Program-made: the position numbers and the translations under genes
NCBI GenBank assembly: GCA_001310415.1
Contig: BAXE01000024.1
Span: 1 to 64,000 of the forward strand
Direction: 5' to 3'
Length of the DNA stretch: 64,000 bases
From: Enterovibrio sp. JCM 19048
GTDB lineage: Bacteria; Pseudomonadota; Gammaproteobacteria; Enterobacterales; Vibrionaceae
Notes under the pieces: model-generated
The model's database searches: none
What the model saw: only the letters and a program-made list of their open reading frames with translations
Told to the model about the DNA's origin: nothing
In this document: positions 3,610 through 10,162 of the stretch, in pieces
Numbering within the stretch: position 1 is the first letter of the stretch
How the letters are laid out: every line of letters starts with the position of its first letter

Positions 3610-3662
3610 GAAGGTATCCTGCCGCAAAGTGATGGCGAACAGTTTACGCATATTTCATACCG

Positions 3663-3976: not shown

Positions 3977-6563
3977 ATGAGATTCCATCTCTTGGCGCCG
4001 AGCAAGAAGGTGTGGTTCTCGGCGACGCTTCTGATTTTGGTGTTGATGGCCTTCACCGGTACCCGCTTCGCCGGTCTGTTTCCTTCATTTGGCCATCACC
4101 CAGATTATGTAGAAGTCGATTATGGTTATTTTATCGACTCCAGTAACAGCCACATCCTTAAATACGTCCGCGAGTCTGCCATTTTCCGGCACATCGACAA
4201 CCCAAACGATATCCCTTGGGAGCTGGGGAAAAAATCTTACTGGGTCAAACTCGATGTGACCAACCTTGAGTCCCAACATCGTCATCTCTCGCTTTACTTT
4301 GATACCCCGATGATCGACCGCCTCAATATCTATCATTTCAACGGCAATGGCGTGGAGGTGAACCATTGGGTGCTGGGCGATAGCGTCGAGCGGGGCTATA
4401 AAATCGGTGACATGCCACCTGCGGTCAGCTTCATGCTTGATGGGTTTGAGAACGCAACTGTGTACATGCAGGTGTTTTCTGCTGGTTATCCCGCCATGCC
4501 TATCTGGTTGATGGACCGGCATGAGTACCATTCCCTGACTCAGTTGCTTCATGCGGTGTGGGGTGGATTTGTGGCGGTAATGCTGCTTGTCGCGACTTAT
4601 ACGTTTGCGGTGTATGTATCCCTGAAAGAGCGTGTTTATCTTGTCTATGGTTGCTATGTTCTAACCTCTTTCATTTTGCTGGGAGCTGTTCACGGGTTTG
4701 GGATTTATATTTTCCCTGAGCCAGTGCAGATCTTTTTCAGCAACAACACCATTAGCCTCACCTTTGGCCTGTTCCTTCTGGCTTTGCTCTATGCCCACCT
4801 TTATTTGCGTGTTCACCAGATGAACACCATGCTGCGGCAAGTGGTGATTTACTCGCTGATGGTGCTGTCAGGCTTAATGATGATTACGTTGGTAGTGCCT
4901 GAGCACGTAGGCGCAATATTCCTGCTGACCACACAGCCTCTGTTCTATTCCCTTATTGCCGTTTTGGTTTGGAAGCGTTGGAAAGTCGCCCAAAAGTGGA
5001 GTTGGATGTTCTCATTTTCCTGGTTGCCGCTGGTCATTGCGGGCATATTCCCGCCCCTGCTTTTAACCGGTCATTTGGAATACACCCTGCTTTCCCGCTA
5101 CGCATTTCTGATCGGCACGGTAACGTCAGTGCTGTTAATGGCACTCGCTCTGGCGGAGCGTTTCCGCCAGCAGCGAGAGACGATCGTCTATGAACTGACC
5201 CACGACAACCTGTCGTCAACGCCCAATGCGAATGTACTTTCTGTGGTGATGGATTCACTGATTCGATCCAACAAGCCCTTTAGCTTTTGTTGCTTCCAGA
5301 TCGACAGGTTCCGCGCTTGGCACCTTACATGTCACTGGAAGAAAAACAGTACTTTATCGGACAGGTCTGCGAGCGCCTGGACAGCGCTCTCGACAGTGAC
5401 AGTGTGATGGTGTTGGAGGTGAACAAAAGGGTTCAGCACCGTATCGCCAACATCAAAGAGGGGCACTTTGGGTTTATTGTGCTCTCATCCAACGAAGCGA
5501 AAATTTCCCTGCTGCTGAATTCGGTGCTGGATGAGATAGACAGCTTTGTTGATATCAACAGCCTGAGTTTCCGCATCCAAGGCACCATAGGGTCAAGCCA
5601 GTTCCCTAAAGATGGCAGCCACACAGACTCCATCCTGAACAAAGCGATGCAGGCGGTGGTAGAAACGTCAATCAGTGAAAAACGCATCAATGCCTATGAC
5701 TCACTGAACAACTTTAACCAAACCCTCAACATGTCGCTGGTGACTGATTTGAAGCGCGCCATTGAGCGCGATGAACTCGAGCTTTACCATCAGCCCCAGA
5801 TTGATCTCAGAACCGGAAATATCCATGGTTCGGAAGTGCTGTTGCGTTGGGAGCATCCGCGTTTTGGCAACGTATCGCCTGAAGTGTTTGTCAAACTGGC
5901 GGAGCAGGTTGGCTGATCAATGACTTGACCCTGTGGGTGATAAAACGTGCTTTCTATCAGCAAAGTAAACTGATCGAAATGGGGTACAGCCGCCGCTTAT
6001 CGCTGAATATCAGTGCCTGTGACATTACTATTCCCAACTTTGTTGAACGCATTGCGGAGGTGGCGGAGCAGTATCGCGTGCCTACCGGGCTTCTGTCACT
6101 GGAGCTGACCGAGTCGGCGCTGGTGTCTGATTATGAACGGCTACATCAGGTGATTGAAACCTTGTCAGGACATGACATTGAAGTCTCGATAGATGACTAC
6201 GGAACAGGCTATTCCTCGCTGACTTATCTGTCGCAATTACCGTTTACCGAGCTGAAGATCGACCGTACCTTTATCATGGCGGTAACCTGTAACCCCAGAA
6301 AGCAGAATATTGTCCGGGCAACGACTGAAATGGCGAAATCGCTGGGCTTAATGGTGGTAGCAGAAGGGGTGGAAGATCTTGAAACCGCCTCATTGCTGAA
6401 GCGGTACGGTGTTGATATTGCGCAGGGGTATCACTATTCCCGTCCGCTGAGTTTCAGTCAGTATGTGCTCTATCTGAAACGTACCTGCAACCAGATGCCA
6501 GCGCCGGTAAAACGTCCACGGCAGTTCGGTGCCAATACGGCTGATATACCCAAACGACCTTAA
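3977..6563 (+). CDS. 7TMR-DISM membrane sensor with degenerate GGDEF and EAL domains
   Basis: About 862 aa after repair. An N-terminal membrane anchor leads into a periplasmic 7TMR-DISMED2-like beta domain (about 40-180, NSHILKYVRESAIFRHIDNP, KKSYWVKLDVTN), then seven membrane helices (about 190-400), a GGDEF-like region without a GG[DE]EF motif, and an EAL domain. The EAL signature is EVLLRW and the catalytic set is present (NISA, LELTES, DDYGTGYSSL, KIDRTFI, VAEGVE, QGYHYSRP), so c-di-GMP phosphodiesterase activity is likely while cyclase activity is not. Two single-base losses break it, near 5310 and 5910 (AEQVGLINDLTLW is restored by one C). Start ATG 3977 follows GGGTG; an earlier in-frame TTG exists at 3959. 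Confidence 0.85.
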
Positions 6564-7652
6564 TCGGGGTAATAGATTACGCCCAGGCGACACAGGCGCG
6601 ATGCCCCGGTCACTTCCGGAAGGTTGCCCGGCTTCCCTTCCAATGCTTGTTTTGCCAGCCAGGCAAACGCCAGCGCTTCAAGTGAATCACCGTCGACGCC
6701 TTTGTCATCGGTTGTCATCACAGTCCAACCCGGCAATGCCTGCTTCAGCGCTTCCATCAACGCCGAGTTCTGAGCCCCGCCACCACAGACGAGAAGTTCT
6801 CCCGCTGAGTACTTTTTCACATCGTTGGCAATCGACATCGCTGTCAGGGCAAGCAAAGTTGCCTGAACATCCTGCCCAGCAAGGGGAAGACCAAATGTCG
6901 CCAATTGTTGATCCAGCCATCCACGGTGGAACAGTTCCCGTCCGGTGCTTTTCGGTGCGGGCTGAGAGAAATAGGGCTCCGCCAGCATTTGTGCCAGAAG
7001 CTGGGTTGACGGTTCCCGACGCTGCCCATTGGCCGTCTTTGTCATACGGTTCACCGCAATGCTCTGACACCCAACTGTCCATCAGCATATTGCCAGGGCC
7101 AGTATCGAAGCCCAGCACCGGCTTGCCGGTTTCCAGAACGGAGATATTGGCAATGCCGCCAATATTCAGCACAACTTTGGTGTTACCCTCGGTGCCGAAA
7201 AGAAAACGGTGAAAAGCAGGCACCAGCGGCGCGCCTTGACCACCTAGCGCCATGTCCTTTCGGCGAAAATCCGCCACGGTCGTGATCCCCGTCAGTGCCG
7301 CAATAATGTTGGCATCACCGAGCTGCATGGTGAACGGCATTGGACCGCTGGGTTTATGGAAGACTGTTTGGCCATGACAGCCTATGGCAGTGACCGCTTC
7401 TGGGCTCAGGTTATGTTCAGCCAAAAAGCGGTTTACGGCCTCTGCGTAGGTTTTGCCAAGAAAATGGTCGATGGTGCCGATTTCATCAAGGGTGATGGGT
7501 TCACCCTGACTCAGGGCAATCAGCTTTTCCTTCAGCTCTGACGGAAAGGAATACATCGCTTGATGGTGAATGGTTGCGCCGTGGTCGCCAAACGTGGCGG
7601 CGACCATATCAATCCCGTCCAGGCTGGTGCCGGACATAATACCGATATACAT
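6560..7652 (-). CDS. anmK: anhydro-N-acetylmuramic acid kinase
   Basis: AnmK phosphorylates and opens 1,6-anhydro-MurNAc, returning it to MurNAc-6-phosphate during peptidoglycan recycling. Diagnostic segments are MYIGIMSGTSLDGID at the start, GCHGQTVFHKP, NIGGIANIS, GFDTGPGNMLMD, SQPAPKSTGREL and LLVCGGGAQNSALME. Repaired length is about 364 aa, as expected. One break near 7015 falls where a run of three C should probably be five (AASGTVNPQLLAQML). The neighbouring nagZ is divergent and acts in the same pathway: NagZ releases GlcNAc and AnmK handles the anhydro-sugar partner. The final codons overlap the end of the convergent EAL gene by 4 bp. Confidence 0.93.
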
Positions 7653-7803
7653 AGCGAAAACTGCCTTGGTTGTCTGTTGCTACTGGCTGTAAGTCTCTCA
7701 CAGGAATAGAAAAGCGGGCATCAAATTTCGTGCTTCAGACTTTCTAGAGTGTGCGTCAGCGCGTACTATGTAGCCGGATCTGCATATTTAATAGGAGCGA
7801 ACC

Positions 7804-8805
7804 ATGGGCACTGTGGCTTGATGTTGAGGGATGCGAACTGGACGCCGAAGAGCGTGAGTTGCTGGCGCATCCGTCTGTTGGCGGCTTGATTTTGTTTGCC
7901 CGCAATTACCACGATAGCCGACAACTGGCGGCATTGACAGAATCAATCCGCAAAGCGGCCAAACGTCCCATCCTGATTGGCGTTGACCAGGAAGGTGGAC
8001 GGGTTCAGCGCTTCCGTGAGCATTTCACAATCATTCCGCCTGCACAGTCTTATGCTCAGATGGAAAATGGGGAAGCGCTGGCACAGGATGCGGGCTGGCT
8101 GATGGCCGCTGAACTGATGGCGCATGATATTGACCTGAGTTTCGCACCGGTTCTCGACCGTGGCTTTGATTGCAAGGCCATTGGTAGCCGTGCATTCGGT
8201 GACGACAACGACACTGTTATCCGCTTCTCTACGGCTTTTATGGCCGGTATGAAACAGGCAGGCATGGCGACTACCGGTAAGCATTTCCCTGGCCATGGCG
8301 CAGTGATTGCTGATTCCCATTTCGAAAGCCCGAAAGACGAACGTGACAATATCTTCGAGCAGGACATGGCGATCTTCACAGCACAGATTCAGGCGGGTGT
8401 GTTGGATGCCATGATGCCAGCGCACGTGATTTATCCTCACTATGATGATCTGCCAGCCAGTGGTTCACCGTTCTGGCTGAAGACCGTGCTGCGTGACCAA
8501 TTGGGCTTTAAGGGAATCGTGTTTTCAGATGACCTGAGCATGGAAGGGGCGACCGTGATGGGTGGCCCTGCTGAGCGTTGCAAGCAGGCATTGGCGGCGG
8601 GCTGTGACATGTTGCTGATGTGCAATAACCGTCAATCCTCGATTGAACCTTGGACAACTTGCCGATCATCGACGTGCCCCAGGCTGCTTCACTGACGAAG
8701 AGACACACGCTAACGCTGCGTGAACTGCAAAGCGCCCAGAAATGGCGTGATGTGAAAAAGCGTGTCGAGCACAGCCTTGCCGTGTGGCAGGAAACGCAAA
8801 ACTAA
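7804..8805 (+). CDS. nagZ: beta-N-acetylglucosaminidase NagZ
   Basis: Cytosolic family-3 glycoside hydrolase that removes GlcNAc from anhydro-muropeptides. The family motif [16 protein letters not shown] is complete, including the His/Asp pair, and [33 protein letters not shown] and [10 protein letters not shown] match NagZ. Two breaks: at the very start, ATG at 7804 (after AGGAGCGAACC) is out of frame with WLDVEG and is joined by restoring two C (MGPLWLDVEG); and near 8645, where IEPW becomes [15 protein letters not shown] with one extra A. The C-terminus then runs to the TAA at 8803. Repaired length is about 334 aa. A terminator follows directly. Confidence 0.93.
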
Positions 8806-8808
8806 CAG

Positions 8809-8834
8809 AAGCAGGGCAATCGCCCTGCTTTTTT
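8809..8834 (+). terminator. nagZ rho-independent terminator
   Basis: AAGCAGGGC-aatc-GCCCTGC is followed by TTTTTT, a textbook intrinsic terminator just after the nagZ stop. Its T-tract runs into the stop codon of the convergent ArsR gene. Confidence 0.85.
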
Positions 8835-9147
8835 ATCCTTGGGTCTCAGTCCCACCGAGTGATTCATCGGCGCAGCATTCTTCCTGCAAAAACGCCAGCA
8901 CCCCATCTAATTGCTCATAATTCGGGACGCAATACAGCGTACGCCCTTCTCGCCGCTGCTTAATCAGGTTGGCAGACATCAAACTGGAAAGGTGATGGGA
9001 AAGGGTTGAACCCGGTATGCTCAACTCTTCTTGTACTTCTCCAACGGCAATACCGGCGTATCCACTTTTGACCAACCGCTTGAAAATAGCCAAACGGGTA
9101 GGGTGGCCCAACTCTTTCAGGGCTTTAGCGACAGTTTCGAGTTCCAT
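8833..9147 (-). CDS. ArsR-family winged-helix repressor
   Basis: A 104-aa ArsR/SmtB-type regulator. KALKELGHPTRLAIFKRL is the typical first helix, SIPGSTLSHHLSSLMSANLI is the recognition region and KQRREGRTLYCVP the wing. The C-terminal tail carries an adjacent cysteine pair (EECCADES) that could bind a soft metal or arsenic species; the classical alpha3 ELCVCDL metal site is absent. It is divergent from a permease of the ArsP-like family, with two palindromic operators between them. I infer that it represses both genes until an effector binds. The inducer cannot be read from sequence: arsenicals, thiol-reactive metals or reactive sulfur are all possible. Confidence 0.88.
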   Translation of the reverse strand: MELETVAKALKELGHPTRLAIFKRLVKSGYAGIAVGEVQEELSIPGSTLSHHLSSLMSANLIKQRREGRTLYCVPNYEQLDGVLAFLQEECCADESLGGTETQG

Positions 9148-9168
9148 TGTGTCTTCCGGTCGAGAATG

Positions 9169-9192
9169 ATATTTCGATAATAACAGAAATAT
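9169..9192. promoter_or_regulatory. ArsR operator copy 1
   Basis: ATATTTC and GAAATAT, perfect 7-bp inverted arms, are separated by 10 bp. The site lies 21 bp upstream of the ArsR gene start and would cover its promoter. Confidence 0.72.
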
Positions 9193-9217
9193 CTTGCATG
9201 AGTGAAAGTGTGAATCT

Positions 9218-9241
9218 ATATTTCGAATATTCTAGAAATGT
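9218..9241. promoter_or_regulatory. ArsR operator copy 2
   Basis: ATATTTC and GAAATGT with the same 10-bp spacer repeat the first site with one mismatch, 49 bp downstream centre to centre. It ends 12 bp before the permease ATG and overlaps its ribosome-binding region. Identical arm length and spacing in both copies mark this as a true operator pair for the divergent regulator. Confidence 0.72.
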
Positions 9242-9253
9242 AGAGATTGTAAA

Positions 9254-10162
9254 ATGAACACAGACACACTCCAGTCCACGTTGGGTATGTTTTTCTTTTT
9301 GGCGGCGGAGATCACTGTGCTGTTTTTGGTGATCAGCTACCTGGTTGGGGTATTGCAGCTTTATGTGCCGCCTGAAAAAATACGGAGCATCCTCAGTAGC
9401 AAGAATGGCAAGGGCTACGTGATGGCAGCGTTTCTTGGCGCGATCACCCCGTTCTGCTCCTGTTCGACTATTCCGTTTCTCAAAGGTCTTATCAGAGCGC
9501 AGGCAGGTTTTGGCACCATGATGGTGTTTCTGTTTGCCAGCCCCCTGTTAAACCCAATGATTATTGGGCTGTTCGCTTTAACCTTTGGTACACAAGTCAC
9601 CGCCTACTACTTTGGTTCTGCGCTGTTTATTTCGATCGCTGCAGGCTATCTGCTGGAGAAGGCAGGGTTTGAAAAGTATCTCAGGCCGATTGCCCATGAA
9701 GAGCCGGCTAAAAGTTGCTGTGGGACAACCTGTGGGGCAAAGACAACGCAAGAAAACAAGTGGGTAAAAATCTGGCGCGGTGTCTGGCAAGACTACAAAT
9801 CAGCGATGCCATATATCCTAATTGGCGTGGCGGTGGGCTCAGTGATTTACGGAGCAATGCCTGCAGAATGGATTGCGTCGGTTGCCGGGCGGGAAAACCC
9901 ATTTTCCGTGCCTTTGGCCGCCGTTGTTGGCATTCCGCTATACATTCGCGCAGAGGCGGTGATTTTATTAAGCGCCCCTTTGTTGGCAAAAGGAATGGCT
10001 GTTGGCACGGTGATGGCCCTTGTCATTGGCAGCGCAGGCGCCAGTATCACAGAGGTAATTATGCTCAAATCGATGTTTAGAAACCCACTGATACTATCGT
10101 TCCTTGTGGTGGTGTTGGGGATGGCAATCGCGACGGGGTATAGCTACAACCTCTTCTTCTAA
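9254..10162 (+). CDS. ArsP/DUF318-type permease with FCSCS motif
   Basis: A 302-aa inner-membrane protein of the COG0701 permease family. About eight hydrophobic segments are visible, with the family motif TPFCSCSTIPFLKG near residue 70 and a second half with GIPLYIRAEAVILLSAPLL. ArsP members export trivalent organoarsenicals and use related cysteines; other members handle unknown small thiophilic solutes. A cytoplasmic loop carries another cysteine cluster (KSCCGTTCGAK, about residue 155), which would suit metal or metalloid sensing or handling. The gene is divergent from an ArsR repressor, with one operator next to its start. It is intact. The family call is firm; the substrate is open. Confidence 0.87.
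   Translation: MNTDTLQSTLGMFFFLAAEITVLFLVISYLVGVLQLYVPPEKIRSILSSKNGKGYVMAAFLGAITPFCSCSTIPFLKGLIRAQAGFGTMMVFLFASPLLNPMIIGLFALTFGTQVTAYYFGSALFISIAAGYLLEKAGFEKYLRPIAHEEPAKSCCGTTCGAKTTQENKWVKIWRGVWQDYKSAMPYILIGVAVGSVIYGAMPAEWIASVAGRENPFSVPLAAVVGIPLYIRAEAVILLSAPLLAKGMAVGTVMALVIGSAGASITEVIMLKSMFRNPLILSFLVVVLGMAIATGYSYNLFF

Follow-up and report, generated by a model that had tools for sequence, protein, structure and literature searches.

What does a small divergent gene pair, annotated only as 'ArsR/SmtB family transcription factor' and 'permease', sense and export? The pair in question lies in a 64,000-nucleotide stretch of DNA from Enterovibrio sp. JCM 19048, analysed here as a whole and referred to as the window. 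A first-pass annotation of this DNA had seen twin ArsR operators between a Cys-tailed repressor and an FCSCS permease, and had offered three kinds of inducer—an organoarsenical, a soft metal, or a sulfur species. Here we argue that the locus serves organoarsenical detoxification as a module like SpArsR/ArsP, a reading to which we give a probability of about 80%. By the open reading frame list of the window, the two genes diverge from a shared control region of 106 bp (9148-9253); the coordinates of all features discussed are collected in Table 1.

Table 1. Features of the arsR/permease locus, with positions numbered along the window.
Feature	Position	Strand	Description and basis
arsR	8833..9147	minus	104 aa ArsR/SmtB winged-helix repressor; open reading frame and profile matches
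Putative operator 1	9169..9192	strand-neutral	ATATTTCGATAATAACAGAAATAT; conserved in relatives
Promoter-like site for arsR	9177..9206	minus	TTCACT, 18 bp, TATTAT; consensus match only, 9/12
Inferred permease promoter	9194..9222	plus	TTGCAT (9194-9199), 17 bp, TATATT (9217-9222); sequence and consensus of relatives
Putative operator 2	9218..9241	strand-neutral	ATATTTCGAATATTCTAGAAATGT; conserved in relatives
ArsP_1-family permease gene	9254..10162	plus	302 aa; PF03773 match
Codons of F67-C-S-C-S71	9452..9466	plus	invariant in alignments A2 (18 rows) and A3 (35 rows)
Codons of CC..C cluster (Cys155, Cys156, Cys160)	9716..9733	plus	linker, pLDDT under 50

The two palindromes in the gap are exact matches to ATATTTC-N10-GAAAT(A/G)T and start 49 bp apart, just as the first-pass annotation had described them. 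No third exact match occurs in the 64-kb window, and 100 dinucleotide shuffles of the window produced none at all; allowing two mismatches brings in two further places, at 3650 and 41746. When a tighter consensus with one mismatch is applied to the organism's own genome assembly (5.27 Mb in 70 contigs, 87.5% complete), exactly these two sites are recovered, and a reversed control pattern has no match in the same assembly.

Conservation of the palindromes in relatives was one of the two points on which the first-pass proposal had been said to stand or fall, and it is extensive. Sites were counted in divergent repressor/permease pairs with gaps of -60 to 700 bp, leaving out co-directional pairs; merging identical gaps reduced 138 pairs to 117 distinct gaps, with L001-L003 skipped. 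At most one mismatch to ATTTC-N10-GAAAT being allowed, at least two sites are present in 101 of the 117 gaps, one in 14, and none in 2; with exact arms, at least two are found in 71, one in 39, and none in 7. Control searches of these gaps gave far less—with the arms set at other distances, 0 to 10 of them held a site, and with reversed arms 1 did. The distance from first to last site is 49 bp, as in the window, in half of the multi-site gaps (50/101).

Operator-type sites, some of them weak, also stand upstream of permease genes that have no arsR match in their 1.5-kb flanks (L025, L028, L029, and L032), and upstream of the permease at L021, where only an apparent arsR start is visible; these loci suggest control of the permease in trans. 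Three alphaproteobacterial loci (L184, L207, and L179) have divergent gaps in which palindromes with other half-sites, ATTAC...GTAAT-like, accompany TTGAC, as though operator and repressor had changed together.

The twin sites are placed closely around a putative promoter of the permease gene. A single base separates operator 1 from the candidate -35 hexamer, and the left arm of operator 2 overlaps the candidate -10 hexamer; the candidate -10 of arsR, in turn, lies inside operator 1. A simple promoter scan does not list the window's permease promoter, the -35 of which is weak. Among the 84 gaps with a site pair 48-52 bp apart, TTG follows the right arm of operator 1 at 3 bp in 64; in 74, the left edge of operator 2 holds a TATATT-like hexamer. 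For the 50 gaps spaced at 49 bp, the window among them, the consensus reads ttATATTTCGATAtTActAGAAATAtcTTGatc, 17 bp, TATATTTCGA.tAtTCtaGAAATataG, and its promoter core is TTGatc-17-TATATT. Since TTG and TATATT keep their positions beside conserved sites, the constant spacing is best read as the spacing of a sigma-70 promoter framed by an operator on either side—an architecture whose conservation across many species possibly goes beyond what is known.

Turning to the repressor, the protein is an ArsR of the metalloregulator type (NF033788, 67.1 bits with a cut-off of 55) and also matches the profiles HTH_20 (2.3e-12) and HTH_5 (1.2e-5). Its cysteines are Cys73, Cys91, and Cys92, with 12 residues after the last. 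The Cys tail that gave the repressor its first description is thus real; however, that description overlooked Cys73, a residue no less conserved than the CC pair, all three cysteines being invariant in alignment A1 (24 rows). The missing ELCVCDL site had been presented as a departure from the usual. There is indeed no ELCVC motif, and the As(III) site of the R773 type is absent because no Cys precedes residue 73, but the arrangement is not unusual—it is the design of AfArsR and SpArsR.

AfArsR of Acidithiobacillus ferrooxidans (PDB 6j05, 2.3e-10) is the best solved relative by sequence, and the CC pairs align on each other, Cys91-Cys92 of the window repressor with Cys95-Cys96. AfArsR is reported to bind As(III) through Cys95, Cys96, and Cys102 (PMC11868830, PMC13236881). 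The CC pair is common to both proteins, but the place of Cys102 holds no Cys in the window repressor; with this third ligand absent, the As(III) site of AfArsR is not reproduced. Across 123 family members (117 from arsR/permease pairs, 6 next to arsH), the CC pair and a Cys 18 residues upstream are found in 122, L047 being the sole exception, and just 2 of the 122 with a CC pair have a Cys at the third AfArsR place. A tree of 130 repressor rows groups the arsH-linked, AfArsR-type, and R773/Smt-type rows; because it leaves the deep forks unresolved and joins long branches to each other, no kinship of the window protein with SpArsR is drawn from it.

A switch responding to sulfur species (persulfide or sulfite), like BigR or SqrR, could be argued from the match of the repressor to BigR at E 1e-11, and from the relative at L245, where the BigR match reaches residue 102 and so runs through the CC pair. 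The match of the window protein, however, stops at residue 74, and its score on the BigR sulfur sensor model (NF040642) is 44.8 bits when the curated cut-off is 155; we regard such a switch as exceedingly improbable.

A comparison that bears on the inducer is with SpArsR of S. putrefaciens 200, a repressor whose CC pair is given as Cys101/Cys102 in a paper citing the original work (PMC13236881). The arsR gene of this strain is Sput200_1227, and the biosensor made from it carried the 222-bp stretch that precedes arsP, Sput200_1226 (PMC12124457). In the same report, 1 uM MMAs(III) brought the biosensor to 73% of the no-repressor control and 50 uM As(III) brought it to 9%, while neither MMAs(V) nor DMAs(V) elicited a response (PMC12124457).

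Among 13 Shewanella loci examined, two (L245 and L249) have cysteines numbered 83, 101, and 102 from the first Met. The ArsR of L245 is 105 aa long from its first Met, and its gene diverges from the permease gene across a 221-bp gap; the Cys101/102 pair and the gap length fit the Cys101/Cys102 of SpArsR and the 222-bp arsP promoter. The island at L245 contains arsC, arsB, a eukaryotic-type glutathione synthase gene, the permease gene, arsR, and a second arsC-type gene, and continues with an R773-type arsR and genes for a second ArsP_1 protein, an ArsJ-associated GAPDH, and ArsJ. Judged by the numbering of the cysteines, the length of the gap, and the order of the genes, L245 is probably a locus of the SpArsR/arsP type.

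Against L245, the window repressor is 65% identical (62/95) and the permease 54% (180/331). The window pair resembles SpArsR/arsP in its C-terminal CC pair, in the absence of the third AfArsR Cys, and in the divergence of the genes (as in L245), and it probably belongs to this already known SpArsR/ArsP kind of system. There are also differences: the linker of the window permease is shorter, ars genes stand beside L245 and none beside the window pair, and the two sites are 49 bp apart in the window but 108 bp apart and less exact in L245. L242, L246, and L252, from the Shewanella group of L245, have a single site each, at one mismatch—the group keeps its operators less well, which is a point against equating the window pair with SpArsR.

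With Cys73 conserved alongside the CC pair, a site of three cysteines that would accept As(III) as well is conceivable. One could accordingly propose a three-coordinate sensor, built from Cys73 of one subunit and Cys91-Cys92 of the other, with As(III) or Sb(III) as the inducer and arsenite or antimonite as the cargo of the permease. The antiparallel last helices of ArsR dimers could join these places, the Cys 18 residues ahead of the pair occurs in 122 of the 122 CC-pair members, and some relatives adjoin arsD-arsA or arsB-arsC. Yet the SpArsR-like protein of L245 has its own upstream Cys83, while the Sp biosensor gave so slight a response to As(III). Moreover, at L102 and L103 the pair stands beside a separate repressor of the AfArsR type, with the AfArsR Cys spacing, next to arsD-arsA and with arsC, which suggests a division of labour. 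We consider a three-coordinate sensor of this kind unlikely.

The permease scores 165.7 bits on the Pfam family ArsP_1 (PF03773, curated cut-off 32.3), which is named after the ArsP of Campylobacter jejuni. The latter is described as an MAs(III) efflux permease in a citing paper (PMC6205960). The C(S/T)C motif of ArsP homologues follows a tPF in those of 'cluster 2' (PMC4435449); the window permease has TPFCSCS at residues 65-71 and so carries both parts of this signature, a likeness by family and motif. Alignment A3 was made without L150, L171, and L174, which contain a stop codon or N. The first-pass picture of twin ArsR operators and a Cys-tailed repressor, here with an ArsP-type permease, is supported by the PF03773 match and by the conservation of the sites. 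One diverged pair, at L047, combines a permease with FCSAS in place of FCSCS and a neighbouring repressor without the CC pair, and a joint change of specificity in the two proteins is possible.

The CC..C cluster that had also been picked out in the first pass is present, and an AlphaFold2 model (mean pLDDT 77) puts it in a low-confidence linker that may be cytoplasmic; in the same model helices 53-64 and 69-81 are separated by a break, where Cys68 lies. Cys156 and Cys160 are nearly invariant among the 35 permeases of A3. In wider relatives the linker cysteines vary from none, in L110, to many, in long forms of 355-400 aa, and are thus unlikely to be essential for the permease. The long permeases (about 355-400 aa: L033, L048-L054, L102, and L127) have an expanded linker, and most are rich in CC pairs.

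Foldseek of the predicted permease structure against the PDB returned no match at E 0.001, and a search for a solved sequence relative gave none, with a best E of 0.27. The top-ranked solved folds for the model are elevators of the ion-transporter superfamily (the ArsB, INDY, NaS1, and Pho90 superfamily), although unrelated helical bundles may score alike; VIA-align gives Z 12.2 to ArsB 10tp_A (rmsd 5.2, 259 aligned) and Z 13.0 to Pho90 8r35_A, levels that helical bundles can reach without kinship. No claim is therefore built on the elevator fold match.

A soft-metal exporter (Cu, Zn, Cd, or Hg) under an ArsR sensor, like SO_0444, is a further candidate, one that finds favour in the E value of 3e-24 given to the permease by the Cu/Zn exporter model SO_0444, in the CC..C of the linker, and in the wealth of CC pairs among long-linker relatives. 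The score on that model (NF033936) is nevertheless 85.8 bits when its curated cut-off is 300, the linker of L110 has no cysteines, and the named resistance-type neighbours in relatives are mostly arsenic genes; pco copper genes near the arsR-arsH unit on one Klebsiella plasmid are the exception. An exporter of this sort strikes us as very unlikely. The SaoE exporter model (NF040736) was likewise rejected, at 82.6 bits against a curated 325.

The pair has no ars company in the window, as had been noted at the outset: queries with ArsH, ArsB, ArsC (two types), ArsD, ArsA, and ArsJ found no match within the 64 kb. Searches of the 87.5% complete assembly of its own genome found neither ArsH nor Acr3, and all ArsM matches fall under the cut-off; this isolation counts against reading the locus as an organoarsenical module. 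There is an arsC match on contig C45, with neighbours that, read by eye, are presumably a BepA-like protease and a WrbA-like flavoprotein. Judged by this synteny, the match is presumably of the housekeeping YfgD type, and it was not counted as an arsenic gene. A second ArsP_1 match in the genome, at C5:112547-113772, is spread over two overlapping frames. Adjoining the pair in the window, at 6560-8804, are what we take to be anmK-like and nagZ-like genes; their frames overlap or are broken, which suggests indel errors of the draft assembly, or decay.

Solitude is, however, the common state of such pairs. Another ars gene was found, within the stretch examined, in 11 of 131 loci (a set in which the same genome may count twice and which comprises no plasmids), so the pair mostly stands alone, as it does in the window. 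ArsP as the sole transporter of its ars operon is common too, at 20 of 49 (PMC4435449). The permease is matched at E 1e-20 or better in 43 of 80 genomes, its own included, and the repressor is present in 90 of the 295 genomes searched in the order. Counting distant matches, the permease is matched by 990 plasmid records and the repressor by 3460. Many marine bacteria have the pair or relatives of it.

Where ars neighbours do occur, they include arsH. An arsR of this family precedes arsH on Klebsiella, Enterobacter, and Pantoea plasmids and at L107, and arsH adjoins the repressor gene at L109; ArsH is a trivalent-organoarsenical oxidase (PMC6205960). The Citrobacter plasmid L057 has the order arsA-arsB-arsC-arsC-permease-arsR-arsH, and L127 has arsD-arsA-permease-arsR. 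Compared with the arsR-arsH and permease-arsR-arsH units of Enterobacteriaceae plasmids, the window repressor is 56-60% identical over the alignment and has the same Cys pattern, but arsR is co-directional with arsH there and arsH is absent from the window.

The fit to SpArsR, together with arsH, arsB, arsC, arsA, or arsJ beside some relatives, makes trivalent methylarsenic the likeliest inducer and cargo by analogy. Of the three inducers first offered, the organoarsenical is hence favoured; the soft metal and the sulfur species are left without positive support, since the scores of the permease on SO_0444 and of the repressor on BigR both lie far under the curated cut-offs. In the organoarsenical module that we propose, a repressor dimer on each palindrome would, when the inducer is absent, cover both hexamers of the permease promoter, -35 and -10, as well as the arsR promoter, and would in this way block RNA polymerase. 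Binding of trivalent methylarsenic, or of a similar soft RAs(III), to Cys91-Cys92 would release the DNA, and the permease would then export the same compound, with the FCSCS cysteines helping to bind it. As the inducer falls, repression would be restored, and arsR would be autoregulated.

Sites of the same type may reach beyond the permease in Shewanella. A eukaryotic-type glutathione synthase (PF03917) is present in 39 of 126 Shewanella genomes, and 39 of the 40 genes found lie in genomes that also have a repressor of this family, itself present in 69 of 129. Thirteen of the 40 are within 5 kb of that repressor; linked copies near the arsR/permease module (L245-L249, L098, L105, L128, L135, and L056) are mostly without sites of their own. 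Of the 27 unlinked Shewanella genes, 19 (L266-L284) were examined, and 10 of these have operator-type sites upstream. Twin sites 49-51 bp apart occur in 6 of these 10—both exact in L276, L281, and L282, and with one mismatch in one site in L272, L278, and L284. All six twins frame TTGACA and TATATT (TACATT in L278), upstream of the first ATG. Arm-distance controls at the glutathione synthase loci gave 0.03 sites per locus. Among the glutathione synthase genes of other relatives, one weak site was seen in 20 examined (of 25), and the gene of the window's own genome has no operator-type site upstream.

These sites raise the tentative idea, to which we give rather less than even odds, that a wider thiol-arsenic regulon is under the SpArsR-type repressor, with one twin-operator promoter design shared by the permease gene and, in some Shewanella, by an unlinked glutathione synthase gene. 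If so, the cargo of the pump would be a glutathione-bound trivalent organoarsenical, or export would be coupled to an extra supply of glutathione. In the window's genome, as far as its sequence tells, the permease arm alone shows twin-operator control. The glutathione synthase arm in Shewanella possibly goes beyond what is known, and with the sites before these genes, a connection of thiol supply to the sensing of organoarsenicals can be put to a direct test. For the window itself, a gene pair annotated only as a regulator and a permease gains a testable inducer, and the operator consensus is usable for methylarsenite biosensors.

The pair is also carried on plasmids (loci L054, L056, L063, L065, and L060): in Escherichia and Salmonella it is found on IncX1 and IncN plasmids, amid IS26 and partly among drug-resistance genes. 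An IncX3 plasmid has a truncated arsR, and in an IncHI1A plasmid the permease reading frame falls into two pieces.
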